From positions 2,170,001-2,234,000 of the forward strand of contig JAGPNK010000004.1 in assembly GCA_020746835.1 (NCBI GenBank): DNA of 64,000 nucleotides. Reading direction: 5' to 3'. Origin of the DNA: Stachybotrys elegans (lineage: Eukaryota > Ascomycota > Sordariomycetes > Hypocreales > Stachybotryaceae). The position numbers were made by a program, and so were the translations under genes. How positions within the stretch are numbered: position 1 is the first letter of the stretch; each line of letters starts with the position of its first letter. The notes under the pieces were generated by a model. That model did not search any database. It worked only from the letters and a program-made list of their open reading frames with translations, and was not told where the DNA came from. Shown one piece after another: positions 3,431 through 53,150 of the stretch.

Positions 3431-3617
3431 GTCTAGAGACTCGAGGATGGGTTGTCTTTAAATTGTGGATAAACAACATATGGCCTCGTCATTTTCGCAT
3501 TCGCATTCCCACCAAGGATCGAGATGCCTGATTTACGTCTGTACCCATAAAACGTCAATCTGTCAGGCACCAGGCTCGACAAAATTCTCTCTCGAAGGCA
3601 GCAGCAACTTTGATCCA

Positions 3618-3900
3618 GTCACCCGCCGAAGCCATCAAGCCAGCGGCAGATCGAGTCACCAGAAGCCATTTGCAGTCATCAAAAACCTTGATATCGCATC
3701 ATCAACAGCAATCTCAACCAAGCCCCCCGGAACAAGCCGTCTCGCAGCAGACCTGACTGTGTCACTCGCCAAAGCCTCATCACCCAACTGTATCACTGGT
3801 CAAAGCCACATCATAGACCCTACGGCAGATGCTATCTCTTTGCATTATGTATGCTAATACAGAAAGGCAGCAGCTCTAATCAAGTCACTAGACAGAAGCC
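3618..3900 (+). repeat. Degenerate interspersed motif TCACYNG..AAAGCC
   Basis: Five copies of a motif TCAC(C/T)-N-G-N(1-4)-(A)AAGCC occur at about 3618, 3656, 3764, 3793 and 3886, with uneven spacing. They resemble a decayed minisatellite. The rest of the 3431-4188 gap is AT-rich with no gene. Confidence 0.35.
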
Positions 3901-4188
3901 TTCTTGTATATTGCGCCCAACGCCACGGTAGCATCACAATAGAAGCTTCTGATCAATTGCAGTGGTGGAAAACTTTAACATTAGCTGCAGCAACAAGCTT
4001 TTCTCAATTAAATCTAATCAATTGTTATCTATTGATCTGATATTGTCTTTATCATTAGAGGGGGCCTCCTTGAAGTCACTGGTCTGTATCCCATTGGGGC
4101 ACACGAACGGGAAATCCCACATCATCTGAAACTTCGTGATAATAATGCTCTCCGGAGGTGGATGATTAGATTCATCTAAGATGACAGT

Positions 4189-12805: not shown

Positions 12806-12822
12806 AGGCAAAAATAGAAGAC

Positions 12823-12868
12823 GAGCCAGCGGCGAGGACGGGCTCCCTGCCAAGGGCCGCCGGAGGCA
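12823..12868 (+). repeat. 46-bp GC-rich dispersed element, copy 1
   Basis: This is the most divergent of six copies. It begins GAGCCAGCGGCGAGGACG and ends GGGCCGCCGGAGGCA. It lies 17 bases past the PRE9 stop, probably in the 3' UTR. The remaining sequence to 13145 holds no gene. Confidence 0.85.
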
Positions 12869-13145
12869 CACCCAGCCAGCCACAAAAGCATCTGGCGAGG
12901 GCAAAGGGTAGCCATGGACCCTTGTAACACTACGACCAAATCTACATGCGTTACGAAGCTCAATGGTATAGAAAGTGTCGTAAATATGATATGCCGCATC
13001 CTCCCATGCTAGTGTACATGCTTCGTATGTGCAAGTCGTAGACTCATCAGGATCCATCCACTCAGTCATGCCTCCTTCCACAAGGTATTTGATACAGACA
13101 GGTTCAAGTCAGGATACACGGTGTCGTCATCAATCCTAAGCTCCA

Positions 13146-14209
13146 TCAGCTACGTTCATCTGCTGGTCGTCCCAGTTCGAAGCCTACATCTACACGTCCC
13201 TCCTCCTCATCGTGGACACGCTGCCATTCGAGGGAGCTGACCTCGGCGTCGGTTGGCGGCGGGTGCGGCTCGTGGCAGTTGGGGCTCGACAGGTGCGGCC
13301 AGTGTCTGCGGTAGCTCCAGTAGGCTACGGTGATGCCGAGGGCCGAGCCGGCGCACACATCGTACACGTCATGGCGGTAGTCTTGGCAGCGAGAGATGGC
13401 AATCATGGCTGCACCCAGGAGGGGGACAAGACACAGCAGCGCGCGGCTCAGGTCGCGGCCACCAGTAGCATAGCGGAAGACGTGGAGCTGGCCGGCGAAA
13501 AAGAGAGCAAAGGTCGTCAGGCCGGCAAAGGAGAAGGAGGAGTGTCCCGAGGGGAACGATCGCCAGCCGTCCTGGAGGATGTAGCCGTCGGGCGCGGTGC
13601 AGGCCTCGATGCTGACGGGGACGTTGGGCTTGATGTCGGCAGAAGGCACGCAGCGCGACAGAAAGTCCGGGCGGGGTCTCCCAACGGCGTTCTTCACAAC
13701 ATCGGTGAGGAAGGCCGTAACGACAATGGAGATGCCGTAGGTGAGATACGTCGCCTGGTGCTTGGCGGCAGAAGCACGGGTGACGACGTTGTAGGCGATG
13801 AGAATGGCCATAGGGATGTACAGGGCGTAGACAAAATTCATGCCTAGACTGTGAGTTGAATTCTGAGAGGTTGGTATAAAGACTTACTCTCGGGAACGCG
13901 CTGCTTCGTGGCAAAGGGGAATGAGATGCGCAGGTCATTGACGAAGAAGAGCTGGTGAAAGGGGTTTTGGAACTGGACAATCTGGGAGGGGGGGTCAGCA
14001 CGGGGCCACAGAGGAGAGAGACTTGAAGCATACCAATATCCATGCCACCAGGAGGATGAAGAAGCCGAGATAGTCAGGCAGATGCGTCGTCTGAGAGGGT
14101 TAGCGAGCTGATGCACACAGCCGCCCGGAGTCCCAACCTTCCATAGCCGCCCGAGGCTCGTCCTGAATGAGGCATTGCCGGACTGCGAGTTGTGCCGTAC
14201 GAGGGGCAT
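13146..14209 (-). CDS. PAP2-family lipid phosphatase (diacylglycerol pyrophosphatase type)
   Basis: The model is complement(13146..13843, 13888..13981, 14034..14090, 14138..14209), 306 residues, with introns of 44, 52 and 47 bp. The start is MPLVRHNSQSGNASF. All three PAP2 phosphatase motifs are present: KNAVGRPRP (KX6RP), PSGHSSFS (PSGH with the catalytic His) and SRCQDYRHDVYDV (SRX5HX3D). Six hydrophobic segments surround them, including PDYLGFFILLVAWIL and MNFVYALYIPMAILIAY. The family dephosphorylates diacylglycerol pyrophosphate and phosphatidate in membranes of the secretory pathway or vacuole (Dpp1/Lpp1 in yeast). The C-terminus is acidic and hydrophilic. The gene is complete. Which of the several fungal paralogues it represents cannot be decided here. 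Confidence 0.93.
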
Positions 14210-15598
14210 GGCGGATGCGTGCGATGCGTGTCTATTTCTATGCCATACAGGAGAAGGACATGAGGGATTGTGAGAGGGAGCGCAGGCGTGCAGTGAAAGC
14301 AAGAGTGAGGATGAGGTTGAGGTCGTCATGGCCACAGTAGCGCAGCAGGGATTAGGAGAGCTGGCACGTGCGCCGGGATTCCAAGCGCCAATGCTCATCG
14401 TCGCAGCGCATCTTGGCCATTGTCCGTCTTCAACTTGTCATCAGCGACACGGTTTTCAATGGCGAATATTCTTGCCCTGGGGGTTTTTTTTTTTTTTGGT
14501 TTTTTTGTTGAAGATTTCCCATGAATTTCTCCAACTCGTCTTGTCTTGTCGTCAAAGCTCTGGTCTCCCGTTCAGTCACTGCAAGCCCCAGCCCATCACC
14601 GGTAAGGCCGACACATTCAAGGGCATACAGTCTGGGTGAAATGTTGTGTATTTTCGGTTGCAGCTCGGGAGGTCTTGTATCCCAAAGAAATATCTCATGG
14701 CCAGATCAATCCGATGCATATGTCAGCCTCAGCTCAGCACCTGATTCACATTAGTGGGACTTGACGTCTGTCCTTCATCTTGTCGTTTGTGTGGTATGAC
14801 GTCCTCAAGAGCGAATGGTCAATCGGCCCGTCTTCCCAATAACATCAGTATTCACCGTAAAGGAAAGCCAGTTAATCCCTCACTCGCCCTGAAAGCTGAG
14901 GGCGATGGGGCGGCCTGGTCGACAACGGCACAGTGCAGGTGGCTGCTGGCAGCAAGCCAGGGTTGCTATTGCGGAGTTTGGCCACCTTACATGGTCTGCG
15001 GTGATATGCAATCCTGTATTTTGACTACTAAGTATGTGCCAGAAGCCAACCCAAGTTGTCTATCTCTTTATTAGACCACACCCTACTGCGTTGTTGTATG
15101 AACATTGCAGTGGCAATTTTCGTTGACATCGCTCTCGTTCTCGCTCTGCCGTGCTGTGCCGCTCACGAGCTATCTCTCCGTTACATTGGGGTCCAAGGAA
15201 CAGGATGCTAAATTTAAGCTTCATCTCCCCACCAGCCGAGTGGCTTCCCTCTTTGAGAGTACATTCTTGATTACTGATGGATCATTCATTGAATGAAACG
15301 GCACTTTAGGCTTGGGCGCCAATCAGGTGGTTGAATGCGGAATCACCATGTGGCTACGCGGCGCATCTCATCGGACAAACTAGATAAAGTCAGGTCCACG
15401 TCTTGGCAGTACAGCTCCGGCTCCTTCGATGTAACTGTAGCTCCCGAAGCAGTTCTGCTCTCATTGGCACGTGCAATCAAGCTGACCAAAGTCCCAAGTT
15501 GTCCGTTCCCGCTGATAAGGTATATGAATATCAGCAGCAGCGTGGAAGTAAGAAGCACGCCCCCAAAGGCCGACACTCACCCTCGAGCAAGCTGCATC
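14210..15598. other. Intergenic region with a T14 tract, no gene seen
   Basis: A run of 14 T at 14484-14497, followed by a second T tract, lies about 280 bases upstream of the lipid phosphatase. Frames in this stretch have no recognisable protein content. It presumably holds promoters for the two flanking, divergently transcribed genes. Confidence 0.5.
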
Positions 15599-16749
15599 AT
15601 GTCGCTTCCGCCATCGTCCGAGTATCTGGCTGAGGACATCAGCCAGCGTGTGGTGGATGTTGCCATTGCCTTTATGGTGATTATGACGGTGGTGTATATC
15701 CTCTTCAACTACTCCCGCCTGTGTCTTGTGAAGCAGAGACACTGGGAATTGTGGGCAATCTACCCCATCTCATATCTCTCATGTATCGGGTTGTGTATCA
15801 TCGCCTTTCGTCAGTGCATAACCTACTCCCATTCTGGTTGCTTGTGCTAATCCTGTCTATAGTCGGGGTTGAGATTGGAGGAGCTGGTCGGCATACTGTG
15901 TACTGGGTTTTTGAAAACTATTCAGTCATCATAGTCACGCTCAAACTCCGGACGGCGACGACATTCATGTACATGGTGGCCGTTACGGTAACGAAACTGC
16001 CTATCCTGATTCTGTACCTCAGGGTCTTCACTGGTCGCAAATCCCGGATTGCTACCTGGGTCGTTCTCGCCATGGTCATCCTCTACATGATTGGCTACGG
16101 CATCATCTACTACTTTGTGATATGCATACCATTCGAGTACAAGTGGGACAAGACGATTCCAGGCGGTCGTTGCGGTGATCTCATGGCAGCATACCGTTAT
16201 GCCAGTATACCCAACATTATCATTGACTTGGCCGTTCTGGTTCTGCCTGTTCCGACACTGTGGAATCTTCAGATCACCAAGATGCAAAAGGTCGGAATCT
16301 TCTTTACGTTCCTGCTGGGAAGTCTGTAAGTGTCCGCCCACTGTCTTTCGTCGCTTATATGTGAGGGTGCATTTGCTAATTATGTGACGTCTAGTGGAAT
16401 TGCGACCGCCATCGTTCGATTCGACATGTTTCTTCGAGTCGACCTAGACGACGACATGATGTATCTGGCGGTGGATTTCCAGACTTATACCGTCATAGAG
16501 TGCAGTGCATACTTCTTGTGCTCATGTTTCCCCCATATGCGACCACTGGCTGTTCAAATCTACCGGGTATCTGGTATGGAGACGTTAATGAGTCGCAAAG
16601 ATACGGCCATGAACTCAAGCGATATTTCGGGATTAACGTCAAAACGAAGCGAGAATAACATCCAAGCGATTGGGGTGGCCCGGTCTCACGACGGGTGGAA
16701 AAGAGAGGCTGATACCGATGGGTTTATTCAACTAAGGGAGATTGCTTGA
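15599..16749 (+). CDS. Fungal rhodopsin-like integral membrane protein
   Basis: The model is join(15599..15809, 15863..16325, 16395..16749), 342 residues. Intron 1 (53 bp, GTCAGT donor, GCTAAT branch) and intron 2 (69 bp, GTAAGT donor) restore one frame. The start is MSLPPSSEYLAEDISQRVVD. About seven hydrophobic segments run from AIAFMVIMTVVYILF to a last helix near ECSAYFLCSCF. Family landmarks are IGGAGRHTVYW, TVTKLPILILYLRVF, CIPFEYKWD...RCGD and the GSLGIATAIVRF end of a helix. The C-terminal ~60 residues are polar with many Ser and Lys. Members sit in the plasma membrane; a G-protein-coupled receptor role is proposed for some (PTH11), not shown for most. The subfamily differs from that of the partial gene at base 1. 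Confidence 0.9.
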
Positions 16750-17012
16750 AAAGGGACATTTTTATTTATTTATCTAGAATGAAATAATAATACAATAAAT
16801 TTCCCCTGCCGCTTTGTATGCGAAACGGTTCATGTGACATCACTCATGGCTAAATGATAATGGAAGATTTCATGCATCTAGGGTAGGTGACTGTCAGCCT
16901 GCTTGGCTGGCCCTACGATTGGCCCAAGCTCTCTCGTCACTTTTCCCAACTTCAGCCTTGCCAAAAGTTGAATGACGAATTAATTGCAGTAATTGCAGCC
17001 AACCTCGCCCCG

Positions 17013-18644
17013 ATGCTCAAGTCAACATACAAACCCTCGCCAGGGCTGGCACCGCTGCCGCCAGGCTGGACGGAGCATAAAGCGCCCACAGGCCACACCT
17101 ATTACTACAACGCCGAGACCAAAGTTTCTACCTACAAGCGACCGGGCGTCGAAGCCGCTCCTGCGCCAGAGCCAGCCGTCCAGAATCCCTACGCCAATCT
17201 GCCCTCGCTCGCCGATCCCCGTGCCGCGAATGCCTACATTGCGCAGTTCAACCAGCCGCCCCCCTCGTCGCATCGTGGTGGCCATGGTGCGGGTCGCGGA
17301 GGCTTCGAGGGCAGGCCGCGCCCGCAACCCACCGACAAACCGAGGCGAAAAGAGCCAATTCCTGGCTGCGAGCCGTGGATCCTGGTGTATACAAAGTACT
17401 CGCGACGCTTCGTCTACAACCCCATCAAGAACACGAGCTACTGGCGCATACCCGAGAAGCTGATGCCAGGAATCCTGGAGCTGGACAAGGCTCGCATACG
17501 CGGCAAGGCAGTGGGCGAGGATACGGCGAAAGAAGCAGAGGACGCTGAAAACCCCACGTCGGAACAGCCAGCGGGGGATGCTGCGGGGGATGCTGCGGAG
17601 GACAGCTCCGAATACGAGGAGGTAGAGGTTACGGACGACGAGGACGAAGACGACCACCCTTCGAAACGACAGCGCACCGAGGAACCAGAAGGACCGGTGG
17701 TATTTACCGAGGACGACATTGCCATGCAGCTGCAAGCCATGGGCGAAGAGTACGGCCTGGATCCGGGCGAGTACGATGACGGACACATGGAGGATTGGCC
17801 CGAAGGCGCCGAGGGCCTCGAATTCTCCAAAGAAGACGCCAAGTTTTTGTTCAAGGACCTGCTCAACGACTTCAACATCAGCCCCTACAGCCCCTGGGAC
17901 CAGCTGATTGAGGAGGGCAAGATTATTGAGGATCCACGATACACGGCGCTGACGACCATGAAAGCTCGCAAAGAGTGCTGGGACGAGTGGTCGCGCGAGC
18001 GCATCACGGAGCTCAAGGAGCAGCGGGCGCGGGAGGAGAAGAAGGACCCGCGGATCGCGTACATGGCGTTTCTACAAGAAAAGGCGACGCCCAAGCTGTA
18101 CTGGCCAGAGTTCAAACGGAAATACAAAAAGGAGGCTCCAATGAAGGACTTCAAGCTGACGGAGAAGGATCGAGAAAAGGCGTACCGCGATTACATCAAC
18201 AGGTTGAAGCTGCCTCAGTCCACGCTCAAAGCTGACCTCACCGCATTGCTGAAGTCGCAACCCCCGCACATACTACACAATCGGTCCGTGGCAGACGGAC
18301 TGCCCGCGCAAGTACTGGGCGATCTGCGATATGCATCTGTGGAGCCGAAGGAGCGGGATGCGTTGATTGAGGCCTACGTGCAAACGCTGCCTCCCCCGCC
18401 GGACAAGGATGGCGAGGCGGCGCACGAGGAGGAAGAGCGGAGGAAAAAGCGGGAGAAGGCACTGGAGCAGCGAAACAAGATGGTGGAGGAGCAGCGGCGG
18501 AAGAGGGAGAGGGAGGTGGCGGCCAGCAAAGCACGGCTGCGGGAGGGAGAGAGGGAGCTGGAGGCGGCCATGCATGTGGGCAAGCGGGGGCTGCAGGGCC
18601 AGCTGGCGGACATGAAGATGCACGATAAGCCCGAGGAAGAATAA
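17013..18644 (+). CDS. WW/FF-domain nuclear protein (URN1 / Dre4-like, CA150 family)
   Basis: A single exon encodes 543 residues from MLKSTYKPSPGLAP. The frame is open further upstream but without an ATG. A WW domain spans residues 11-44 (PPGWTEHKAPTGHTYYYN, then TYKRP). A second, WW-like unit is at 121-151 (EPWILVYTKYSRRFVYN, then SYWRIPEKL). An acidic region follows (YEEVEVTDDEDEDD), then FF-type helical repeats from about 275 (FLFKDLLNDFNISPYSPW) to about 400, and a highly charged coiled-coil-like tail. Proteins of this design (yeast Urn1, S. pombe Dre4, human TCERG1) link splicing and transcription by binding Pro-rich splicing factors and polymerase II. The family call is firm; the precise orthologue is inferred. 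Confidence 0.85.
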   Translation: MLKSTYKPSPGLAPLPPGWTEHKAPTGHTYYYNAETKVSTYKRPGVEAAPAPEPAVQNPYANLPSLADPRAANAYIAQFNQPPPSSHRGGHGAGRGGFEGRPRPQPTDKPRRKEPIPGCEPWILVYTKYSRRFVYNPIKNTSYWRIPEKLMPGILELDKARIRGKAVGEDTAKEAEDAENPTSEQPAGDAAGDAAEDSSEYEEVEVTDDEDEDDHPSKRQRTEEPEGPVVFTEDDIAMQLQAMGEEYGLDPGEYDDGHMEDWPEGAEGLEFSKEDAKFLFKDLLNDFNISPYSPWDQLIEEGKIIEDPRYTALTTMKARKECWDEWSRERITELKEQRAREEKKDPRIAYMAFLQEKATPKLYWPEFKRKYKKEAPMKDFKLTEKDREKAYRDYINRLKLPQSTLKADLTALLKSQPPHILHNRSVADGLPAQVLGDLRYASVEPKERDALIEAYVQTLPPPPDKDGEAAHEEEERRKKREKALEQRNKMVEEQRRKREREVAASKARLREGERELEAAMHVGKRGLQGQLADMKMHDKPEEE

Positions 18645-18776
18645 CTGTCGTCTGGGTCGGTGAAGTCATTGAATTATCATGAATCGTGCTGCGAATCTGT
18701 CTACTTGGCTACGCTATACCCATACCATCGGTACCATTCTCGCTAGACGGAAGGAAATGAAAGGAAATAGTAAACA

Positions 18777-20321
18777 TTACAGATCTGTAAAGAAACCATC
18801 AGCACGTTTCCTCAGATGGTCTGCCCACTGTTGGATGCCCTCAGTAGACATGACACCTTCCTCGGTGACGTAGCTGTCGACTAGGTTTTCTGGCACCCAT
18901 TCGAAATAGACGTTGCGAACAGCCACGCGGCCAGGACTATTTCGGGGCCGACCCCAGGCCTCGACAAGTTCCCGCGGGTCGTTCTCCTCAGCATGAAGCG
19001 GGGGATCAAAAGGTAAGACTTTGTCCCTGTCAGCCAGGGCGACGATGCGGGCTCGCGGGGAAACATGGCGGGCGGCGAGAACGGCAGGAAGGGAACCCGT
19101 CTTGTTGCTGACGCGGCCGTCGCGGTCGAGGAGGTCGGCGCCAATGAGGACCATGTCGACGTCGCTGGCTGCAACGGCGGCGCAGGCATCGGTATAGACG
19201 GTGACGCGGGAGGGGGAGTGAGGAGTGTTGAGAGCAATGGTATCGGCAATGGTGCGGGCGAGGGCGACGCCTTCGAATAATGGGCGGGACTCGAGGACAC
19301 GGATATCCAGGGTGAGAGTTGAAGGCTGCTGGGCCAAGTTCTGGAGGGAGGCGCTGATGGTAGAGCTGTAGGAGAGGGTGAGGATCTTGAGGGTCGTTTG
19401 GTTGGGGAATGTGTCGCGGATAAAGGCGGCAAAGGAGGACGCGACGCGGCTGCTGACGTCGTGGCGCTCCTCAGAGAAGTGCTTGATTCCGGCGAGGACG
19501 TCGTCGGAGAAGCCCTGAGGAAGGGCGTCGGAGGTTGCTGGTGGGAGACGAGCCTCGATGATGGACAGGCTGGTGAGCATGGCGCTGAGAATGGAGGCGC
19601 CCATGGCTTCGCGGCCATTCTTCCACAGATGCCAGGCGGCGAGGCGGACATTGAACCACCAGGTTTGTTGGGAGGATTGGTCGAGGCGGGCGATGACATC
19701 GATGAAGACGCGGACAGCCTTGGAAGCGAGCTGTCTCGCGCCGCTCTCATGGTCGTCCTGCAGGGCCTTAAGACCGCGCGTCAACGCAGCAGCGGCGTCA
19801 GGTCCAAGATCAAAGTCGAACCAGACGCGGCGGAGGCTCTCTCGCAGCCTGGGGACGAAGACGTCCTCGTTGTCGACAACATCCTGGGGCTGGAACCAGG
19901 TGTAGCTGTCGTGCTCCCAGTCGATGGCGATGGGGCCGGCGGCCGAGGTGAGGAGGAATGCGAAGGGATTGATTGTCCAGTGGCGGCGGACGGATGGATC
20001 GACAAAGGAGTAGGGCTTGCCGGTGCGGAAGAGGCGGACGGAGGGCGGTGCAAGGGCTGTCTCTTCATGGAGCTCCCGGAGGGCGGCGGCGAGGGGGGAG
20101 GGGTCGGAGGATTCTATGGAGCCGGAGACGAGGCTGTATTTATTGCTGTAATATTTTGTGAGTATCGAAGCATTGAAGAGCGAGGAAGGGTCGTACGGAT
20201 AGGTGCTGACTTTGTCGCTGCGACGGAAGAGGGCGATTTTGGGAGGCTGGGTAACGTCGTCGTTGGGGAAGCGGAAGAGGAACGTGCCAGCCACGGCCCG
20301 GTCTTGGATGTCGTCGGCCAT
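18777..20321 (-). CDS. Nudix hydrolase fused to an eIF2B-alpha/beta/delta-like domain
   Basis: A single exon of 514 residues starts MADDIQDRAVAGTFLFRF at 20321. The N-terminal third is a Nudix fold: FLFRFPNDD, ALFRRSDKV and a Nudix box ending AALRELHEET with the metal-binding RE..EE residues; the usual upstream Gly-Glu part is altered. Residues ~230-505 resemble the IF-2B superfamily (eIF2B regulatory subunits, ribose-1,5-bisphosphate and MTR-1-P isomerases): MVLIGADLLDRDGRVSNKTG near residue 420 matches the GAD...NK-G motif, which in the isomerases binds sugar phosphate. A sugar-phosphate or nucleotide-linked enzyme is more likely than a translation factor, because no other eIF2B features are present. 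The upstream gap (20322-20738) holds TGCATG and TTAATGGG simple repeats. Confidence 0.85.
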   Translation of the reverse strand: MADDIQDRAVAGTFLFRFPNDDVTQPPKIALFRRSDKVSTYPYDPSSLFNASILTKYYSNKYSLVSGSIESSDPSPLAAALRELHEETALAPPSVRLFRTGKPYSFVDPSVRRHWTINPFAFLLTSAAGPIAIDWEHDSYTWFQPQDVVDNEDVFVPRLRESLRRVWFDFDLGPDAAAALTRGLKALQDDHESGARQLASKAVRVFIDVIARLDQSSQQTWWFNVRLAAWHLWKNGREAMGASILSAMLTSLSIIEARLPPATSDALPQGFSDDVLAGIKHFSEERHDVSSRVASSFAAFIRDTFPNQTTLKILTLSYSSTISASLQNLAQQPSTLTLDIRVLESRPLFEGVALARTIADTIALNTPHSPSRVTVYTDACAAVAASDVDMVLIGADLLDRDGRVSNKTGSLPAVLAARHVSPRARIVALADRDKVLPFDPPLHAEENDPRELVEAWGRPRNSPGRVAVRNVYFEWVPENLVDSYVTEEGVMSTEGIQQWADHLRKRADGFFTDL

Positions 20322-20738
20322 GGCAAAATTCAAGATTGACGTGAAGGAGAGGAGAATGGGGGAGTAGAGGGGGGCGAGGGTGAGGGAGGGTGGTGAAAGA
20401 GGAGGAGGATGAAGGACGGAGGGGTTGCCGGCGATGGCGATGGTGATGTGACGCACGCCTTGTGCATGTGCATTTGCATGTGCATGTGAAATGGAGGGGT
20501 TGACAGGGGTATCTCTACACGGGAATAAGACACGATAAGACAGCAATTGGACCATGGACGGGATGGGAATTGATGGGCATTAATGGGAATTAATGGTTGA
20601 AGCTAATCCTATCAGTATATGGACAGAAGAGAGTTGACAACAAGACAACACTCAGAAGCGCCAGTCACGCTGGACGTATCAGTACAGGAAATGGACCAAA
20701 TAGAACCAAGAAGGGAAGGGAAGAAAGAAAGAAAATGA

Positions 20739-22932
20739 TTACGAAAACTCCATCTCGTCAAGACCGTAGCAGTGCATCTGCAGCGCCCATTCATCGCCCA
20801 TCATGGCCAAGATATCACCCCCAAAGGGCGCATTTACATCGTGCTGACCACTGCCGTCGAGCTCGGCCATCCTGGCACGCAGTCCTGCGACAAAGGTACG
20901 AACTCGCACAATGACAGCGGCCCAGTCGCGCGCATACTCAGTGCCTTCGTCCTGGAGCTGGCGCAGGGCGAATTCGACGTCGTCACCAACGTCCAAGGCC
21001 GAAGGGGAAAGTTGGTGCAGCAGAAGACATAGCACGGCGTCAACCATGGATTGCAGACCAAAGTGGAGGAGAACAGAGGGGGAGGAGGTGGGCGAGGGGC
21101 CGCGACGACGGGCGTCGAGAGCAGAAGCGTGACGAACGAGCACCATGATGCGCTGGGCGGCCGCGATGCAGGTATGTGCATGGCGCTGGAGGACTTGGGG
21201 ATCGTAAGACGAATCAGCATGCTCGGGGGTGAAGCGGTCGGCAAAGGAGCGCTTGACAGAGGCAAGGAAGGATGGGCGGAGGGTGAGGAAGAGGAGGTGT
21301 TGGTGCTGAAGGTGGAGGAGGCTGACGGTAGGGTCGTCAACGGATGGGTCACGAAGGGAGGGAGGAAGACCGGCCTCCCACTGACTGAGCATCCACGTGG
21401 TGCGGTTGATGTGCCCAGGCGAGGAAGAGAGGAGAAGGGAGGAGATGCGGGCGAGATCGACATGAGCAGCAAGGCCACCAGCCGGAGGCATAGACCTACA
21501 AGAGTTAGCCAACCACATAAACAAGAAACGAGCCGAAGGCGAGGACAGCCCCCCTGGCAAGGGCCGCCGGAGGCAACACAGAAAAGAAGAGAGACGTTAC
21601 TCACGGATGGTCTTCTGGAGGAGGGAGATGGATATCATCATCTGCAATGGTGGCAGGACGACCAAGAGCGCAAGCGACCCATCGATCCAGAACGTAGGCA
21701 GTCCAGAAGATTCGCTTGCCTCGTTCATCGACATAGCCTCTATGAGCACCCATCATGATGGCAGTACGAATAGCCATGGCGACATAGAAAGCAGCGCTAT
21801 CACACCGATCTGCTTGGATGAGGTATAGGCCAAGCAGAGACAAGGTGGCGACATCGTCGATGGTGCTTGTGCGAGCCATATCTAGGGGGTTATTGCCGAG
21901 GAGGCAAACAGCACGGGCGAAGAATGTTTCACTAGGGGTGGCAGCTTCGCTGGGACGTCGCTGCTGATGCTGTCTGGACCCGGTACTGCGGTAGTACAAG
22001 ACGGCGAGGGCAGCGTTGAGGAGAGCCAGATGACGGAGATCCGAGGCCGAGGACTCTGGCGTGGGGACGGGAGGGAGGACAGAGAAGTCTGCCCACCAGT
22101 AGATGCCGCCGCTGGGCCAGTCACCGTTGCCGTCGTGGACAATGTTGCGCAGCTCAGTCAGCATGGTGGACATGCTTGAAGGAGGAGGCAGCCAGACGGG
22201 ATTGATGTTTTGGACGCGCATGGGCCGCGAGTCGCGGGTGTGGTAGGCTCCGATGGTGGGGATGGGGGACTGCTGCTGGCGAAAGGAAGGGGAGGAGAAG
22301 ATGAAGCCCATGAACTCGTTGAGCTGGTCGACAAAGGCGGCGGAGCTTGTGGCGCCGAGGAAGCGTGCAGTGCCGTGGTCATCGCGGAGAAGCCTGGCCT
22401 CTGGGCGGGTGACGGGGGAAGCAGAGGAGGAAGACTCATCGTCGAGGGCGGCAGTGAAGTCGAGAGAAGCGATGGTGCCCGGGTCAGTGACCTGGAAGGC
22501 CGAGGAAGAGGCAGTGGGGGAGGCATTGGGGGAAGGGCTCGTGCCGGCAAGCTGCTGCAGGCGGACGGGATCCTCAGCCAGGGCACGGTCGTAGGCATCT
22601 GCCTTGCGACGGAGGGCGTCGAGGTCGGCGCGGGCAATGGTGACCTTCTCGACGGCGGTGGGATAGACGCACTCGCGCGAGGTGGAGGTGCACTGCGTGC
22701 AGGGCTTGTCACCGGAGCACTTGATGCGGCGGACGTTGCAGCTGTTGCATCTGCGAAGCGTGTAAGTGAAGGTATGCGGAGAGAAAGGGGGGGCAACATA
22801 CGCTGTGGCTACGCGTTTGCGTTGCTCTGGGGCAACCTTATGACGACGAGGGTTCACAGGCAGACGCTGAGAGGAAGAGGAGGAGCGGCGTTCGTTGCCA
22901 GCAACACTGCTGGGGCTATCTCCAGGCATCAT
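20739..22932 (-). CDS. Zn2Cys6 fungal transcription factor
   Basis: The model is complement(20739..21495, 21605..22750, 22802..22932), 677 residues. The start is MMPGDSPSSVAGNERR. The binuclear zinc cluster uses Cys45, 48, 55, 61, 64 and 71 (CNSCNVRRIKCSGDKPCTQC) and is split by a 51-bp intron just before the first Cys, a common position in this family. The fungal-specific factor domain follows: GGIYWWADFSVLPPV, LLGLYLIQADRCDSAAFYV, then RIFWTAYVLDRWVACALGRP. It should be a nuclear DNA-binding regulator; targets cannot be inferred. Intron 2 (109 bp, 21604-21496) contains a complete 46-bp dispersed element, yet donor (GTGAGT), branch (GGCTAAC) and acceptor (TGTAG) are all outside the element, so splicing should be preserved. 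It is transcribed on the same strand as sidA, which lies upstream of it; a role in siderophore control is untested. Confidence 0.9.
21530..21575 (+). repeat. 46-bp GC-rich dispersed element, copy 2 (inside an intron)
   Basis: It begins GAGCCGAAGGCGAGGACAG and ends GGGCCGCCGGAGGCA. It lies within intron 2 of the Zn2Cys6 gene, antisense to the transcript, and makes up 42% of the intron. Confidence 0.95.
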
Positions 22933-24377
22933 GGAGGGGTGGCTGTATGAGAGAGAGAGGAGGAGGAGGAGGAGAATGGATGACGAATGGTCCAGGCAGA
23001 AGGGAGGAAAGATGGGACGAGGCCGACATTGATGTAGTCTGACGGCTCCGGGGGCGCGGACCGGGCTGGCGGGTATCGCGACATTGTGCTCGGCGGAGAG
23101 ACAGTTTGGAGGAGGGAGGTTGACGTCGCCTGTCACGGGGGGGAGCAAGGATGAGACGATGAGCCCCAAACGCGGGAGTGGGTGGATATACGGGGGGAGA
23201 GGAAGATGTTTCCATGGAATGTGCTTTGACGTTTGGACGGTAGGGGAAACGAAAGCGAAGGGGGGGGGGGAATACTCGCATACCGAGTCAGCGGAAGCAA
23301 CCAGGAGAGGAGAGGAGAGGAGGAGAAGGCGAGGGTAAGGTGTGATGGCGTGAGCTGTGCCTCGCCAGCCTCCTTCTGACCCCGCGCGCATCTGATGTGT
23401 TGAACCAGGGCTGAGGGCGGTCAAGATGGTGATGGGTGCGATGTGGTAGAGTGTCATGGCACGTATATGCGCAATGGTGTACGCAACCCCATGTCCAAGA
23501 AGGATCGTGGGCATGGATGGATGGTGTTGACGCTGAGCGGGCCGTCTTTTTAGCGGGGGAGATATGTGATGGGTCTATTCTTGTCTTAAGGCTGGGCGAG
23601 GTCTGCATAAGATGATGTTGTGTCGAGTGAGATATACGAGGACAGGGGGAGGAGGACGAGGAGGAGGATCTACACGTGGAGAGCAAGGGAAGGGGTGGGG
23701 AAGTGAGTGTGCACCGAGGAGGAGGAGAATGATGATATTGAAGATGATAATGATGATGAAGATGACGATGAAAGAGATCCCCCCACTGGTAGGCGTGTAC
23801 AGCCACGCGTCCATTTAGACGAAGGTGGTGCTATTGGTGGAAGCGCGAGAGGGTGAGAAAAGTGCAGCCTAGTAGGCAGCCGTGATGCGGCGGCAGCGAT
23901 AGCGATAAGAACATACTACGCACATGAGGAATAAGAAGAGATGGATGGATATGGATATGACATGGGGATGGATGGAGATGGAGAGATTAGATGAGATGCG
24001 ATGGAAACGAGGAGGTGGCTAAGGCGATGACGATGACGACGGAAATCATCGAGTGTTTCATCGTCGGCCCATTTACTCGCGTTTCAACCCCCTCCCATCC
24101 GATCTATCATGGCTCTAAATTCTGTTTCTTATTTTTTTCTCTCTTCTCGTGTTCTGAACGATCCCCTGCGAGGCGCTGCTGCGGATGGATTCAGGTACCC
24201 GAGCAAAGTGCCCATGGTGCGTGATTATCCTTGCAGGCTCAGCCACGATACTACCATGTTCCCCCCTCCCCCTTCTTTATTAACCACCTAGAGAGGTCCC
24301 GTACATTGGCCAATGGAAATACAACAAAAAATGCTATCCAAAAAGTGAGGTAAAAAACAAGTTCACGCTATTGTGTG
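22933..24377. other. Intergenic region, simple repeats only
   Basis: This 1.4 kb stretch upstream of the Zn2Cys6 gene is purine-rich on the plus strand, with GGA runs, a GATGAT tract around 23729-23775 and GGATGGATGG tracts near 23940-23975. No frame looks like a protein. It is probably promoter and 5' leader for the regulator. Confidence 0.5.
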
Positions 24378-26335
24378 TCATGCTGGGGCACCGAAAATGG
24401 AGTCTACGATTTCGCCGGATCGGGTTGCGATGATGCTCAACAGGCTGTCGCTCAGCTAGAAAAAAAACAAACCGTCAGTCTTGGGTTGATAGGAAACATG
24501 CAAGCGAGCCGCAGGCGAGGCCAGCCCCCCTGGCAAGGGCCGCCGGAGGCATCACCAAACATCAATCCAGCCGCATCGTCTTACCGGAAGCACAGCCTCG
24601 CCAGGGGTTGGTTGCATGAAACAATAAAACAATATGAGAGAAATAACTTACACCGTGAGTCCCCTCGCACAGCCCCTGAAGCCAGACGCCCGCCTGGGCC
24701 TCGTCGACGGTGCCGGGCTGGAACTTGACTCGGTAGTCTCTGCCCACCGACATGTTGCGCTCGCCCTGCTCCGAGGGCACGTTCCAGCCGGCGACGGCCT
24801 TGGAGAAGACGCTGTTGGGGCCCTTGGCCTGGGGCGCCGCCTTGGGCAGCATGGGCCAGGCGTCGCGCAGCATGTCGACGTGGGCGCACCGGCTGTAGCC
24901 CGTGGCGGCGATGACAACGTCGGCGGCAATGGTGGTGTCGTCGTCGACGAGGCTGGCGGCCGAGGCGGCGCCCGAGGGCACGTGGACGTAGTCGTCGGGC
25001 GAGGCGCGCTCGGTGCGGACCTCGAGCAGGTCGTCGCCGAGGGGCTCGATGCTGCTGATCTGGCGGCCGGCGAGGATGCGGTGCGGCCACTGCGTCTCGT
25101 CGCGCCCGAGGGTGCGCAGCTGCTCGTACATGAGCTCGTAGAGCGTCTCGATGAGGTTGAGGCGCACGACGCTGTAGTTGGTGGCGCGGGCGTCGTCGAG
25201 GAAGTTCTGGCGCGAGCGCGCCGACCGGGGGAAGACGGAGTCGACAAAGTCGGGGTTGAAGATGGAGTTGACGCTGCGATTGTCAGTCAAGATACAAAAG
25301 GGGAGGAGAGGAGGAGGAGGAGGGGGGAGGAGGTTACAATGGAGAATCGTCGCTGGGGCGGAGATATTCTGGGCGCATGACGAGATACGTCTTGGAGCGC
25401 GGGTACTGCTGCTGGATGGTGTGGAAGATCTCGGCGGCGCTCTGGCCGGCGCCGACGACGACGACGCGGCAGGCGGCGGCGCGGTCGGGCAGCAGGTGCG
25501 GGATCATGTGGGCAAACTGCGACGAGTGGATGACGCGCGGGTGCTTGGCCGGGAAGCTCCGGGGCAGCGAGGGCTGGCCGCCGGTGGCGACGAGGACGTG
25601 GCGCGCGCGGAAGGACGAGACGTGGCCCGTCTTTGCGTTGCGGGCGCGCACCGAGAAGCTCCGGACGGCGGCTCCGGCACCGGCTCCGGCTCCGGCAACG
25701 GCTCCGGCGAGCTTGCCGTCGGGCGCCACCGACACGACCTCGCTGCCGTACTGGACGAGGTGGTCAAAGTGGGCGGCGCACCAGGCGAGGTAGTCCTCGT
25801 ACTCGCTGCGGGCGGGCAGGAACGTGTCCATGTTTGTGAACTCGACGAGGCGGCCGTGGGCGTGGAGGTAGTTGAGGAAGGTGAAGTGGGAGCGGGGGTC
25901 GCGCAGCGAGGCCATGTCCTTGATGAAGGAGATTTGCATGCGCGCGCCGGGCAGCAGCATGCCCGAGTGCCAGGCGAAGCGGGACTGCTTCTCGAGGAAG
26001 AGGACGCGCGGCGGGCTGCCCGAGGGGAGGAGGGCGCGGCCGGCGGCGAGGGCGTCGTGCATGGCTACCGCGACGCCGAGCGACGCCGGGCCGAAGCCGA
26101 TGCACACGAGGTCGAACTGCTCGCCGAGCGGGGAGGAGGGGAGGTGTGCCGAGGGCTTGACGGCAGGGCGCGGGCGGTGGAGAGAGTGGCCGTTGGAGAG
26201 GCTGTTGGAAACGCCATTGCCGTTGGAGAGGCCGTTGGAATGGCCGTTGGTGATGCCATTGCCGTTGGCGTGGCCGTTGGTGAGGACGGGGACGGGCTCC
26301 GCGTCGTCGTATACTTGCTCGCTATGAGGGGACAT
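24378..26335 (-). CDS. sidA: L-ornithine N5-monooxygenase, first enzyme of hydroxamate siderophore synthesis
   Basis: The model is complement(24378..24455, 24652..25273, 25338..26335), 565 residues. The enzyme uses FAD, NADPH and O2 to make N5-hydroxyornithine for ferrichrome-, coprogen- or fusarinine-type siderophores. Seen: a low-complexity Asn/Gly/His N-terminus (repeated NGHSNG units), the FAD motif IGFGPASLG at residues 79-87, [19 protein letters not shown], the NADPH motif [11 protein letters not shown] around 295, [17 protein letters not shown] across the first splice junction, the ATGYSR motif near 456 and the C-terminal [19 protein letters not shown]. Intron 1 is 64 bp; intron 2 (24651-24456, 196 bp, GTAAGT/TTCTAG) contains a full 46-bp dispersed element. 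A short Gly/Ala repeat insert (AGAGAGAG, ~214-221) is unusual. It faces away from sidC across a 3.3 kb gap containing iron-type GATA sites. Confidence 0.96.
24506..24551 (+). repeat. 46-bp GC-rich dispersed element, copy 3 (inside an intron)
   Basis: It begins GAGCCGCAGGCGAGGCCAG and ends GGGCCGCCGGAGGCA. It lies within the last intron of sidA, antisense to the transcript, in an otherwise AT-rich intron. Confidence 0.95.
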
Positions 26336-27437
26336 TTTGGCAATATCTTGTAATCGAACCCTGTAGAATGGCTATTTTTCTTTTTTTTTTCTTTTTTGTC
26401 TCTGGATATCTGAGGATGGCCGGGTATTGATATAAGTGGTCACCTCGTCATTGGTAGCCGAGTCGATGACGGAGCGATTTCCAGAAGGATGATGCTATTT
26501 AAAGCAAAAAGCAATTAGCCATGATGCCGTTCTTTGGTCCAATAAAGCAGCGGGCAATGGTCATCCGGAAAACAGGGAAAAACCAGGACAAGAGAGGGAG
26601 GGCCACGTACACGAAGGGGGGTTACTGTCGTGATGAATTGACTTTTTTCTTTCCCGAGCCCGTTGTTGAAGGGGGCGATTTCACCGTCCTGGTATAAACA
26701 CAGACGCGACAAGGAGCCAATCGAGAGACGATCCGAGGTTAGTAGATGAGTCGGGTTGCAGCACACGTGCTTATATATATAAAAAATACTATTAAAGAAA
26801 AGACGGGAGAAGGAAAAGAGAAGGACGGGGTGGATGAGGCGCGAGTTTTATGCATGTAGATAATCTACCCTTGGCGCTGGGACCTGTGTGAGCCACTCAT
26901 CCCCCCCCCTCTCTCCATCCATCCTCTCTCCATGGCGCAAGATGGTACGGGAGAAACCGTACGATGGAGCGCCGAGCACGCTCCGATGAGGAAGACGGGA
27001 TGGATGGATGGATGGAGATTTGGGGGTCCTGGTTCCCGGGGTGGTTGCGTGCGCTGCTTTGTATGTCGCCTCCACTTGGGGAGGGGGGCTTGATTCCTGC
27101 TTGAGAAGGTCTGTCTGTCTGTCTGTATCTCCGTCTACCACTCTCTCTCTTGTGCGTTTCCGTGGGCCGAGCGATGGCTTCACCTCCGCCGTCCTTGCTC
27201 TCCCCATCCTAACCCAACCTCAACGAACTACAACAACCTATTCACCCTGCAAACAGAGCAAGATACCACCATATTTACATACACGTCTACATCTCTCTCC
27301 CCTGTGACTTAGGTACTGCCGATCGCACGACGCCGCCGGAAACGGGGCCAAGGGCCGATATAAGCCGGACACTAGACAAAGGGAGGGGGGGGGGGGTAAA
27401 GGCGCCATGACGTGGGTTAAGGGCCCTAGATGAGCGA

Positions 27438-27456
27438 TTATCTCTGGATCTGATAA
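27438..27456 (+). promoter_or_regulatory. Paired GATA sites, one matching the SreA/Urbs1 consensus
   Basis: TTATCT at 27438-27443 (GATA on the minus strand) is followed by ATCTGATAA at 27448-27456, an exact fit to ATCWGATAA, the reported site of iron-regulatory GATA factors (SreA, Urbs1). It lies about 1.1 kb upstream of sidA and 2.2 kb upstream of sidC. Confidence 0.6.
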
Positions 27457-27565
27457 GATGGCCGTTTGGGCACAGGAAAACCACATCATGGTAACGCAAA
27501 TCAGCAGGGCTACCCCTGGCTGGCGCCGTTTGCTGTCCCTGCTACATGCAATTAACCCCCCCAAC

Positions 27566-27613
27566 TCGAGCCGAAGGCGAGGACAGCCTCCCTGGCAAGG
27601 GCCGCCGGAGGCA
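27566..27613 (+). repeat. 46-bp GC-rich dispersed element, copy 4 (left arm of a perfect inverted pair)
   Basis: The core is 27568-27613. With two extra matching bases (TC) it forms a 48-bp arm exactly complementary to 27647-27694, separated by 33 bases. It begins GAGCCGAAGGCGAGGACAG and ends GGGCCGCCGGAGGCA. Confidence 0.97.
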
Positions 27614-27646
27614 TCGCATTTCTCCGGGCGGACTCATTGTAGGATG

Positions 27647-27694
27647 TGCCTCCGGCGGCCCTTGCCAGGGAGGCTGTCCTCGCCTTCGGCTCGA
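27647..27694 (-). repeat. 46-bp GC-rich dispersed element, copy 5 (right arm of a perfect inverted pair)
   Basis: The core is 27647-27692 in reverse orientation, 46 of 46 identical to the reverse complement of copy 4. The two arms plus the 33-base spacer make a 129-base palindrome. Confidence 0.97.
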
Positions 27695-27915
27695 TGGGGG
27701 GAGGACGAGGAGGAGGGGAGTTCGTTATCTTGGCGCTGTAGGCTTGAATAGACGATTCAGCATCCCGGCAGGCAAAAGGGAAAAACAAAAGAAAGAGAAA
27801 AAAAAAAAAACCCTTGCCCCTCGTTTATGCGATTGGACCCTTCTGGCGCTGGTTTACGTACATACATACATACAGGGCCGGCGCGGGTGCGCGCAGTGGA
27901 TACGGATTGAGGGAA

Positions 27916-27948
27916 TTATCTGATGATCTGATAACGCGGATCTGATAA
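27916..27948 (+). promoter_or_regulatory. Triple ATCWGATAA cluster (iron-regulatory GATA sites)
   Basis: Three exact sites lie within 33 bases: ATCAGATAA on the minus strand (27916-27924), ATCTGATAA at 27926-27934 and ATCTGATAA at 27940-27948. The consensus is that of SreA/Urbs1, which repress siderophore genes when iron is sufficient. The cluster sits midway between the divergent sidA (1.6 kb) and sidC (1.7 kb) starts, so it may control both. Binding is inferred. Confidence 0.75.
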
Positions 27949-28640
27949 AAAATTTTCTCTTCTTCATCTCCTTTGCCCGCCGTTCGTGCTAGATAATATG
28001 CCGGGACCCGCCGTGCCTCCGAGGGCCATCAGCTGAAGCGTCTAGTGCCGGCGCTTGTCTGGGGGTGGTTGTATTTTATTTTACGTGTTGTTGGATGACG
28101 AGGAGAGGAGGAGGAGGGATGGGATGTTGTGGGAGGGGGGGAGGGAGATGGTAGGGCTTTATGTTGGTGACGGAGGGTGGGATGTGAGTGTGAGTTTGTG
28201 CGGCTGTTGTTATATGTAATAGCAGTATGTAAGTCCGTCCCTCTCATGCCCACTCTCCCCCTCTCTCTCTCTCTCTCTCTGCGTCTTCACGCAATACCTC
28301 TGCCTCCCCTCAACGCCAACCCGCGCATCACCTTCCAAGAAATCCCCAGCCTCACCCCATCTCCTTCCTGTTGGACACGTCACAGCGCTGCCCTCCGTCA
28401 TGCCCATCGACCGAGGCTCGTCCCACTCCCCGCCGCCGCTCTTTCTCCTCACACTAGGCCGTTCCGTACCATGACCTTTGTGCGTCTCTCCTTGATTCTC
28501 CTCGTGCCCCTGTCGGTTCTAGTTTTTTTGTCCCCACCGCATCGTGGGCCGTGGGTTGAGACGCGTGTGTGGGCACCGCGTGTTGGATCTCTACGATATC
28601 GGCGCTTGTCTTGGATTGTGTCTGTCTCTGTCTGCCCATC

Positions 28641-28686
28641 GAGCCGTAGGCGAGGACAGCCCCCCTGGCAAGGGCCGCCGGAGGCA
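28641..28686 (+). repeat. 46-bp GC-rich dispersed element, copy 6
   Basis: It begins GAGCCGTAGGCGAGGACAG and ends GGGCCGCCGGAGGCA. It lies about 1 kb upstream of the sidC start codon in otherwise unannotated DNA. Confidence 0.95.
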
Positions 28687-29650
28687 TGCCCCCCCCCCCC
28701 TCCCTCCTCCCACGTTCAAATCTGGTTCACTCGGTCTAGACGCCGTTGCTGCTTGTGATGGTGAGGGTATGCGTTCTTTTTGTTGTGTCACAGGCACAGC
28801 AAGTGGTCATATGCCGGGTCAGTGGGTATAGTACACCAACTACTACTATGTACTAACCAACAATCGCCATAGATTGACTCCCGCGACACCAAATGCCTTG
28901 GTCGTCATTTCTTCCCTCTTCCATCTTATCTTCCTAGTCCCTGGTACTGACGCCCATGTGCCTCTCTCCAAGCTGCCCACGTGAAGTCACGGTGGCTTGC
29001 CGCCTACATAGTCCAGCCCAAGAGTCGTGACGCCACCATTCTCCGCATCTCACGGCCAAGCGTGCTACATACAAGTTCCTACGCCTCAACCATAGAACAC
29101 CCGGGTCTGGTACCACGCGGCGCACCTCTCCAGACTTGCCATTTTCAGCACCTCCTCCGTCACTCACACACACACTTGTCGCACACAGCAACCAACACAC
29201 GACAAGTCGTCATCTTTCCTGGTACCGCTTAGCCCGCGCTGAGTAATTCCTCGCTTCTTACAGGTCAGCGCCTCGGAATGGGTGGGTGCCCGTCATCCAA
29301 CATACAACAACCCCCAAGCTTGACGGCCTCGCTCTCTTCAAATCCACCACTCGCCATTGGTGAATCTGCCGGCCGGCCTGAGACCCCTTCCCACTGCGGA
29401 CCGCGCCCAGAGTCCATAGTTGCTGGGGGAATCACGCACCTGCAGGGTCTCACTCGGAGTTTAACCGCCTCGTACACGGCTTATTACGGCTTGTGGGCTT
29501 GCCGCGTCGGTTACTGACTGGGGGGGTTTATGATAGCTTCCTGCAACTGCTCTCGTAGGATACAGCGGTTGACACTGTGCTCATTCATTTTTCTTACTTT
29601 CCCGCTCTTCTTCTTCGCTACGCTGTCAGACTTCTTAGACTCTCATCGCC

Positions 29651-48180: not shown

Positions 48181-48955
48181 CCCGTATTTGGGGTTTCCTA
48201 TCCGTGTCCCTTAATGACATGCAGACCAACGACTTCTGGGAGGTCCCCTCTGATGATAAAGACATCATTCAAGTGATCATTAAGATGAAATCAGTGTATA
48301 GTCTGAGGTAGAAGTAGTAAAGAGCAAATAAACAGTAGAGAGAAACAATAACGAGGCCATTGCCAGGCCGCCCTTGCATACAGGGTGGCCGACTGGCCAC
48401 GGCCAAGCCGCAGGTGACTACGCAGGCATGTGATGCGACGGGATGTCGGTTGGATGGAAAGCTTCGGTTGACTCATCGGATGGAAGCCTTTGATGATATT
48501 AAATTAATAGACCACAGTTGGTAAGAAAATTGGGTTGAGAAAAGCATGAGGCCTGGCTGTAGAAAGTTTTCCCAGCCACCACGATCCCACCGTGGCGTTG
48601 CGTGGAGGGACGCGGTCAAGGTTGCCGCGAGAAGGACTGTTCTGGAAGACTCGTTCCGATGATGCGATATCAAAGTTTTCGATGACTGCAATTAGCTTCC
48701 GGCGACTCGATGGACACTCGGCGGGTCACTCGATCAAAGTTACTGCTGCCTTCGAGAGAAAACTTTGTCGACAGTTGTTGAGCCTCGGCTTGTATGTGGG
48801 CTATTTTGTGTGGGATTTCCTGTTTGTGTGCCCCGATGGGATACAGACCCGCGGCTTCGAGGAGGCCCCCTCTGGTGATAAAGACGATATCAAATCAATA
48901 GATGGCAATTGGTAAGAAAATGAAGTAGGTTAGGAAAAGCTGCAGGTGGCCTATT
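48181..48955. repeat. Decayed direct-repeat fragments, probable transposon remnant
   Basis: Segment 48181-48262 resembles 48800-48886 over about 75 bases (shared core CCCCTCTG-TGATAAAGAC). The sequence after the second copy (48887-48945, with ATTGGTAAGAAAAT) resembles 48495-48555. Differences are largely C/T and G/A. The 47255-49384 gap otherwise contains no gene. Confidence 0.5.
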
Positions 48956-50752: not shown

Positions 50753-51492
50753 CTCGTAGGTATCTTTGGCGAGCTTTGGAAGATGAGAATGATGTGTCGT
50801 AGCACCTGCTGTTTAAAGAGCAGCTGAAGGATGAGATGTGTGGATGGCTGCGGAATATAAAGACGAAGAAAGTGGAATGGTCGCAGCTCAGTCAGTGGAT
50901 GAGGTCCAGGTGGTGAATTCTAAATTTCACCCGGCGCTACGACAGGCGGTGCTTCCCGCTATATTTTGTAGCTAGAATCACCAGACCACACCGTCGTAAC
51001 CATGCGTGCCCTAGGGGTAGCCGTCTCCATGAGGATATTAAGGTTTGTACATAGCCTCAGCCTTGGACAAGTGGCTGGGCACGGGTTGCAGAATGGGTCG
51101 TATCAGGTTGGAAAGGTGACGGTAGCCCACCGCTTCCATAGCCAGTAATAGCACTCCCAAGCACCACCACATCGTAGGCGCCTGCTGCATCATAAAGGCT
51201 TCCACCATTGCTTCGACTTGCCCTGAGAGAGTCCTCTTGCCAAGCCTTTACACTACTTCCTTCTTCCTCTACAAAATCGGACCTTTGCCATTGCTTACTA
51301 GTGCTGCAACATTGTCACGTTACTTCCTATTTGATCATTACCATTTCCATTACAGGATTCAACGCCGCCTGGTGATACTGGTACACCATTCTTCAAATAG
51401 ACTATTGCTGTTTTTTTCTCACTACACGTACCTCCTTAATCATACTGTGCAAGAGAGGCCTGCTACCAAAGATCACAACAATTAAATCTTTA
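50753..51492. other. Intergenic region, no gene seen
   Basis: About 740 bases upstream of the orphan gene, ending where the left minisatellite begins. No protein-like frame or repeat was found. Confidence 0.4.
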
Positions 51493-51709
51493 AAGACCAT
51501 CAAGACCACAAAGACTATAACAATCACAAAGAACATAAAGAATACAAAGAACACAAAGAACATAAAGAATACAAAGAACACAAAGAATACAAAGAATATA
51601 AAAAACACAAAGAATACAAAGAATATAAAGAATACAAATAACACAAAGAATACAAAGACTACAAAGACCACAAAGACCACAAAGACCCTAAAGACCATGA
51701 AGACCATAT
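51493..51709 (+). repeat. 9-bp minisatellite (AAGACCACA-type units), left arm
   Basis: About 24 units of nine bases, with AAGACCACA or AAGACCATA at the edges and AAGAATACA or AAGAACACA in the middle. Its inverse counterpart is at about 53080-53150. The Phe-rich reverse frame across it is not a gene. Confidence 0.9.
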
Positions 51710-51711
51710 AA

Positions 51712-51743
51712 ATACCGTTCATCGGCTCTAGCCCTTATGTGTG
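51712..51743 (+). repeat. 32-bp imperfect inverted repeat, left copy
   Basis: Matches 52881-52912 in reverse complement with two mismatches, both transitions (shared core TAGCCCTTATGTGTG / CCAGCCCTTATGTGTG). Directly beside it, 51746-51771 is a perfect 26-base inverted copy of 52113-52138, part of the broken gene in between. Confidence 0.85.
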
Positions 51744-51767
51744 TAGGCAAGGTGCGACATTTGATCC

Positions 51768-52912: not shown

Positions 52913-53079
52913 ATACACACATCCAGACCAGTCTGCTACTGCAGGTCCCCCCCTGATTATATAGGCTTGTACGTGGTTGCTGCCGCTGCCGCTGCTGCAG
53001 CCCCCTCATTGTTCTCTGGCTCCGGCCAACGGGAGATGTCATCTGACGATCCTTTCATTGTTTGACACTGTTCTTTAGA

Positions 53080-53150
53080 ATTGTTATGGTCTTTATGGTC
53101 TTTGTGGTCTTTGCGATCTTTGTGATCTTTGTGGTCTTTGTGGTCTTTGT
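53080..53150 (-). repeat. 9-bp minisatellite (GGTCTTTGT units), right arm
   Basis: About eight units such as GGTCTTTGT, GATCTTTGT and GGTCTTTAT on the plus strand, the reverse complement of the left-arm unit. Confidence 0.88.

Follow-up and report, generated by a model that had tools for sequence, protein, structure and literature searches.

The window analysed here is a stretch of 64,000 nucleotides from the fungus Stachybotrys elegans (contig JAGPNK010000004.1, positions 2,170,001 to 2,234,000), part of a contig of 2,728,842 bases (C34) in an assembly of 43.4 Mb and 61 contigs. It holds an ornithine-monooxygenase (sidA-like) gene, a Zn2Cys6 regulator (B0I35DRAFT_407495) and, beside and within them, copies of a short repeat with sharp borders. 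An original prediction listed six copies of a 46-bp element able to form three hairpins in a row and took it for a mobile or copied unit. Does this repeat extend beyond the six copies, and is its fold real? Our analysis confirms the observation and partly supports that first interpretation: the repeat is a genome-wide family of 47-bp units, in which compensatory changes argue strongly, though not finally, for two flanking hairpins and a core of two crossing helices.

The repeat at the sidA-like locus

All six copies lie where the prediction had put them and on the strands it gave, each with 46 bases from GAGCC to GGAGGCA; the five said to lie close together all fall within 21530-28686. The fixed borders hold, the length does not: a C stands directly 5' of GAGCC in 27 of 27 copies with exact borders, including all six of the window, and because it is invariant we define the unit as 47 bp rather than 46.

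The first copy (12822..12868, forward strand) has AGC as its first loop, CCCTGCCAAGGG in its middle and core helix S1 swapped to GGC/GCC. Not all copies carry the internal strings quoted in the prediction: the first loop varies (GAA, GCA or GTA in the other window copies), and this copy departs from them. The second (21529..21575, forward) sits within an intron of the regulator (about 21495-21603), antisense to that gene; tblastn of the annotated protein P0001 stops at 21604 and restarts at 21494. The third (24505..24551, forward) has the 3' end of the sidA-like gene on one side and the regulator on the other, both genes being on the reverse strand. The fourth and fifth form a tail-to-tail inverted pair with a spacer of 33 nt, the first arm at 27567..27613 (forward) and the second, identical to it, at 27647..27693 (reverse). 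The sixth (28640..28686, forward) is intergenic, where the sidA-like gene (reverse strand) and a putative non-ribosomal peptide synthetase gene (forward strand) diverge; this large neighbour, with a frame of 4415 aa, is so read from the AMP-binding domain at its start.

A dispersed family with fixed borders

Genome-wide, at least 28 clear copies exist, well beyond the six that might have been all: 27 have exact borders and one, L062, carries one additional base within hairpin 1. The number is a lower bound, as the search scored the best candidates only. These fixed borders and numerous further copies support the proposal of a mobile or copied unit. A gapped family pattern, permitting up to 30 nt between the ends, has 25 exact matches in the genome and none in a reversed control, and chance is therefore excluded. 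The 5' pattern alone matches exactly at 29 sites, 26 of them in the final 28-copy set, and the 3' pattern at 24, every one within the set. When one mismatch is allowed, the controls match as well (77 matches against 25 in the control for the 5' pattern, 34 against 4 for the 3' pattern); such matches were therefore not counted alone, only with both ends and the core present. Divergent copies used as queries across the genome revealed no further clear member. Four decayed or partial relatives (L059, L060, L061 and L079) were excluded from all counts. The contigs that bear the copies range from 159 kb to 6.0 Mb, and the 3' end reads GGAGGCA in 21 of 27.

Is the repeat related to anything already described? 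A strict pattern has no match among prokaryote contigs (genome_contigs), and two patterns have none among viral_contigs; 11 genome_contigs stretches that fit a loose pattern lack the common core and are attributed to chance. A three-frame peptide query for coding copies in other fungi returned 51 candidates, none at E<=10, a weak negative given the restricted length. The prediction had named a match to a known repeat or to a tRNA-derived short interspersed nuclear element (SINE) among the findings that would refute it. ARAGORN finds no tRNA gene in the 64-kb window, Rfam no match there at gathering score, and the copies share no SINE-like tail 3' of column 47; this speaks against a SINE, and the Rfam result likewise against a known structured RNA family or ribozyme.

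Compensatory changes point to crossing helices

The 28 copies were aligned after removal of one linker base from both L021 copies and the copy at L023:5864, and of the inserted base from L062; 20 columns vary. Hairpin 1 (columns 4-12) has a 3-bp GCC-GGC stem in 28 of 28 copies and a variable triloop, mostly GNA (GAA in 16, GCA in 6, GGA in 3, GTA in 2 and AGC in 1, L062 being read without its extra base). Hairpin 3 (columns 38-46) reads GCC-GGA-GGC with its stem at 38-40/44-46, a register shifted from the predicted GCC-GCCGGA-GGC and borne out by covariation at 38-46; its loop is GGA in 27 of 28 copies and GGG in L047. Between these two hairpins, a GCC/GGC helix (20-22/28-30) crosses a CCCT/AGGG helix (24-27/32-35). 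Of the predicted row of three simple hairpins, the two flanking members hold, the third in another register than foreseen, and the middle one is rejected.

Exactly four column pairs are Watson-Crick in at least 27 of 28 copies and show more than one pair type, and all four fall within the proposed helices: 21-29 (23 CG, 3 GC, 2 TA), 25-34 (27 CG, 1 TA), 27-32 (18 TA, 10 CG) and 38-46 (24 GC, 3 TA, 1 TG). In 3000 column shuffles, no more than two such pairs arose. The three core pairs are each Watson-Crick in 28 of 28 copies, so that both core helices covary, and because 21-29 crosses 25-34 and 27-32, a nested fold cannot hold both. Among the 24 insertion-free copies (set A3, 18 distinct), the full structure leaves 98.9% of cells as standard pairs and has 12 cells changed on both sides, values that 0 of 500 shuffles reach in either case; with the partner displaced by 1, 2 or 3 columns, pairing falls to 49.6% or less. 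By parsimony, 14 changes fall in the 30 paired columns as against 26 in the 17 unpaired ones, 10 of these 26 at the N of the first triloop. The counts on the tree, which is small and drawn from the same columns, fit about five double changes. We regard the covariation as strong but not final evidence for the fold, since the shuffles disregard relatedness and the tree is small.

A rod fold (4-6/44-46 plus 10-13/37-40) was the competing structure. It is predicted for three forward-strand copies with both DNA and RNA parameters, and for one complementary strand as DNA, though not as RNA; RNA energies also prefer it. Its pairs 12-38 and 4-46 are nevertheless broken in all four copies with T at column 38, whereas 38-46 stays paired (Watson-Crick in 27 of 28 copies, T-G in the other), and we reject the rod. 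The minimum-energy DNA fold is likewise the rod, so that the DNA energies of this comparison are of no use as evidence for a single-stranded DNA form.

The core loops measure 1 nt, or 2 nt in three copies. Loops of 1 nt make a full pseudoknot geometrically tight, and for this reason the two core helices may alternate: the core may be an H-type pseudoknot or two alternating hairpins. As for the flanking hairpins, the GAA triloop is described as the most stable DNA loop known, by virtue of a sheared G-A pair (PMC9828363), and GNA minihairpins are listed as extraordinarily stable (PMC11101458). Two loops on the CGAGCC strand fit GNA, which favours that strand as the folded one. The GNA loops agree with a single-stranded DNA form; an RNA form is also possible. 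That the fold is retained despite changed paired letters suggests that folding is required for spread or for function.

Target sites and local clustering

The absence of an obvious target-site duplication was correctly foreseen. At all border shifts, the best result over 27 copies was 6 of 27 at 2 nt and 2 of 27 at 3 nt, so that none was found, unlike what a miniature inverted-repeat transposable element (MITE) derived from a DNA transposon would show. The 1-kb flanks of the 27 copies match one another only as neighbouring copies or through element copies that they contain; the flanks of different clusters are otherwise unrelated. Read on the element strand, the 10 nt on each side are rich in A and C (350 of 540, p 5e-12), position -1 is C in 0 of 27 copies, and the skew fades within about 20-40 nt of the borders (L062 is absent from these 27-copy flank statistics).

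The copies are clustered. There are 17 pairs within 10 kb, compared to 0.17 expected under uniform spread, and C34 carries 12 of the 28 copies, compared to 1.8 expected. Near copies are also more similar to each other: the mean difference is 2.35 versus 4.63 for pairs up to 10 kb apart (p 0.003) and 2.0 versus 4.64 for pairs up to 2 kb apart (p 0.002). Two tail-to-tail inverted pairs occur, with identical arms within each and with spacers of 33 and 19 nt that are unrelated by eye.

Over the inverted pair of the window (27571-27689), an Rfam search of 27500-28750 at E<=10 has microRNA models as its best matches, for example MIR5534 at 52.1 bits (E 5e-9, gathering score 79); none reaches its own threshold. 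We read these as an effect of the long hairpin. If transcribed, the inverted pair could supply small-RNA pathways.

Genes around the copies

Splice signals were inspected at seven copies. Five are intronic: that in the regulator, placed by the annotated protein, and those in a TrkH gene (L012) and at L018, L016 and L023:5864, placed by eye; around the copies at L010 and L020 no intron was seen by eye. Two of the five lie sense to the gene and three antisense, and in all five introns the splice sites are outside the 47-mer. In the TrkH gene, the intron (L012:4947-5028) has 82 nt; the element accounts for 47 of these, and the remainder is 35 nt. An intron of 35 nt would be unusually short for a fungus. 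One copy, L033:1499-1545, lies in frame within an annotated coding sequence, that of protein B0I35DRAFT_446919, to which it adds about PPEAPAGEAVLACGSK, some 16 residues. This peptide is not seen in nine aligned relatives (18 were found besides the protein itself), in a region whose variability would obscure a clean empty site. The remaining copies were placed by a home-made coding score only, which puts them in noncoding stretches beside genes.

The prediction had set the repeat around sidA and the regulator. This cluster is real, yet it is one of several, and a siderophore link is not supported: no common theme emerges from 30 neighbouring reading frames scanned with Pfam (29 outside the window and one inside it), and the neighbours elsewhere are of unrelated kinds (GH43, GH16, TrkH, sulfatase, ankyrin, NACHT, Vma12, polyprenyl synthetase, peptidase, Ctr and others). 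We therefore reject siderophore-specific regulation. Near one further cluster, L023, there is a match to the ornithine-monooxygenase family (L023:7273-8910, 31 bits, E 1.5e-7), which we take as coincidence.

The window contains other repeats. At 51455-51724 and 53069-53160, a 9-bp tandem minisatellite (AAAGACCAC-like) and an inverted version of it enclose about 1.4 kb and may mark a separate mobile element; inverted repeats also occur at 51709-51776. Two 78-nt direct repeats of 87% identity (54155-54345) lie upstream of a HET-domain gene and close to it. At 3576-4122 and 48186-48917 there are several inverted repeat arms (54-109 nt, 78-91% complementarity), perhaps two copies of a diverged transposon.

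Discussion

What kind of unit is 47 bp long, ends at the same bases in copy after copy and keeps a fold? We favour, with moderate confidence, a family of very short, non-autonomous nuclear mobile elements that would spread in the form of a folded single strand, much as organelle hairpin elements or bacterial REPs do. The ends are fixed, the target is strand-biased and not duplicated, spread is local, and a single-strand fold is under selection; in combination, these features resemble the single-strand mobility of the REP/IS200 type. Introns are occupied in both orientations, and one copy lies in an annotated coding sequence. The CGAGCC strand would be copied or moved while folded, drawn from single-stranded DNA at a replication fork or an R-loop, or from RNA. 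A host or transposon enzyme would read the fold and join both ends to a G-poor, A/C-rich target without duplicating it, often close to the donor and sometimes in inverted orientation. More tentatively, the pseudoknot core and the two GNA-triloop hairpins could be the very structure recognised, which would make the family a fungal counterpart of REP/IS200-type mobility with an enzyme not known; we hold this narrower version to be possible, though the odds are against it.

Several results weigh against mobility as a folded strand. A partner enzyme was not found: the Y1 transposase domain PF01797 has no match in the genome, in a search whose control was positive in 6 of 14 genomes, and the Helitron Rep-like domains that pass the Pfam cut-off, seven in number (four of them in stop-free open frames longer than 700 aa), are on C22, C43, C29, C16, C15 and C40, contigs other than those bearing copies. 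For pairs up to 50 kb apart, the greater similarity of near copies is not significant (p 0.08). On the side of the fold, the covariation amounts to about five events, and two of the five shuffle measures do not rise above the shuffles ('pairs changed on both sides', 106 of 500; 'further pair types', 117 of 500). Nested folding yields no excess stability over shuffles. A wobble-tolerant covariation count (8 pairs, shuffle mean 5.6, maximum 10) is not discriminating, for which reason the strict Watson-Crick count was used. Two copies at L017 break helix pair 20-30 and one of them also 40-44, the decayed copy L059 aligns over 47 nt with several helix pairs broken, and the 1-nt core loops are tight, as noted above.

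Could the fold instead be kept because every copy works where it stands? The repeat would then act in cis as a structured RNA or DNA, by binding a protein or at the transcript level, and would have spread by ordinary local duplication and conversion. The structure retained in nearly all 28 copies, with few uncompensated helix breaks, would fit, as would the copies in introns and in noncoding stretches beside genes. Such an element would hardly be expected in mixed orientation to its genes, among neighbours without a Pfam theme and within a coding sequence, and ordinary duplication should have carried flanks along, which it has not. We consider this explanation unlikely, although it survives better than the other two.

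Known short repeats offer both parallels and a further alternative. The mitochondrial repetitive hairpin-forming and double-hairpin elements (RHE, DHE) and yeast mitochondrial GC clusters are presented as short dispersed hairpin units, mostly intergenic and sometimes in genes, thought mobile and with no adaptive function known in that account (PMC2800124). Like them, the 47-mer is a dispersed short unit able to form hairpins; compared by description rather than by sequence, it differs in being nuclear, in its GNA triloops and in a crossing-helix core with compensatory changes in both helices. In Volvox carteri, short palindromic hairpin repeats averaging 50 nt are reported from the nucleus too; these nuclear copies match organelle DNA, often with mismatched stems, and are interpreted as transferred and inert (PMC2670323). 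In S. elegans, nearly all nuclear copies retain their stems. By analogy with Volvox, the 47-mer copies might be remnants of a mitochondrial double-hairpin-type element that arrived as fragments of organelle DNA and is inert in the nucleus; hairpin-forming repeats are described as regular in fungal mitochondrial DNA (PMC2800124). We think this improbable: the copies end at the same bases without common attached sequence, the border flanks are A/C-rich and not A/T-rich, and local clusters of similar copies suggest copying in the nucleus. The mitochondrial genome itself is probably not in the assembly, since a COX1 search gave no match.

Bacterial REP/REPIN sequences offer a further parallel. They are portrayed as short hairpin units in inverted pairs with short spacers, for which a single-stranded form is proposed (PMC3116915), and the 47-mer is likewise a short hairpin unit that sometimes forms such pairs. 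Doublets are exceptional here, with 2 pairs within 200 bp among 28 copies, whereas 61% of REPs are given as doublets (PMC3116915). The REP tag, cited as GTAG or CGTC (PMC3733652), is not at the 47-mer borders, and the S. elegans genome has no Y1_Tnp match to parallel the RAYT (Y1 HUH) transposases of REPs. Fungal introner-like elements and sister stwintrons are described as repeated intron units with internal symmetry (PMC9024468); the 47-mer differs from these in leaving the splice sites outside, in sitting in either orientation within the five introns and in having other copies that are not intronic.

Origin from a Helitron does not fit the borders. Helitrons use a single-strand mechanism, leave no target-site duplication, end in CTRR at the 3' side and insert between A and T. 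The 47-mer shares the missing duplication, and Rep domains exist in the same genome; the common 3' end GGAGGCA is not CTRR, however, and A/T borders (A, then TC..., then T) occur in 2 of 27 copies only. Solo terminal remnants of a larger transposon or MITE are the least probable source: the two tail-to-tail pairs do resemble a MITE with 47-bp inverted repeats, yet they are only 2 among 28 copies with spacers of no visible kinship, single copies are fixed at both ends and unduplicated at the target, and no longer element with such ends was seen with up to 30 nt searched between the ends and lone 5' or 3' matches viewed in short stretches.

Mobile units of this size have precedents in bacteria and organelles. 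In open-licence literature searches we found no nuclear mobile unit so short with evidence of selection on its fold, nor a nuclear fungal family of such form, although one may be described elsewhere. Double changes that preserve crossing helices, including a swap of CG to GC, indicate that even so short a repeat depends on its fold. The family bears on the minimum size of a mobile element, and one of its copies forms part of an annotated protein-coding sequence. It also poses a concrete question: is there a nuclear enzyme that recognises such folded strands and inserts them without duplicating the target, and which one is it?

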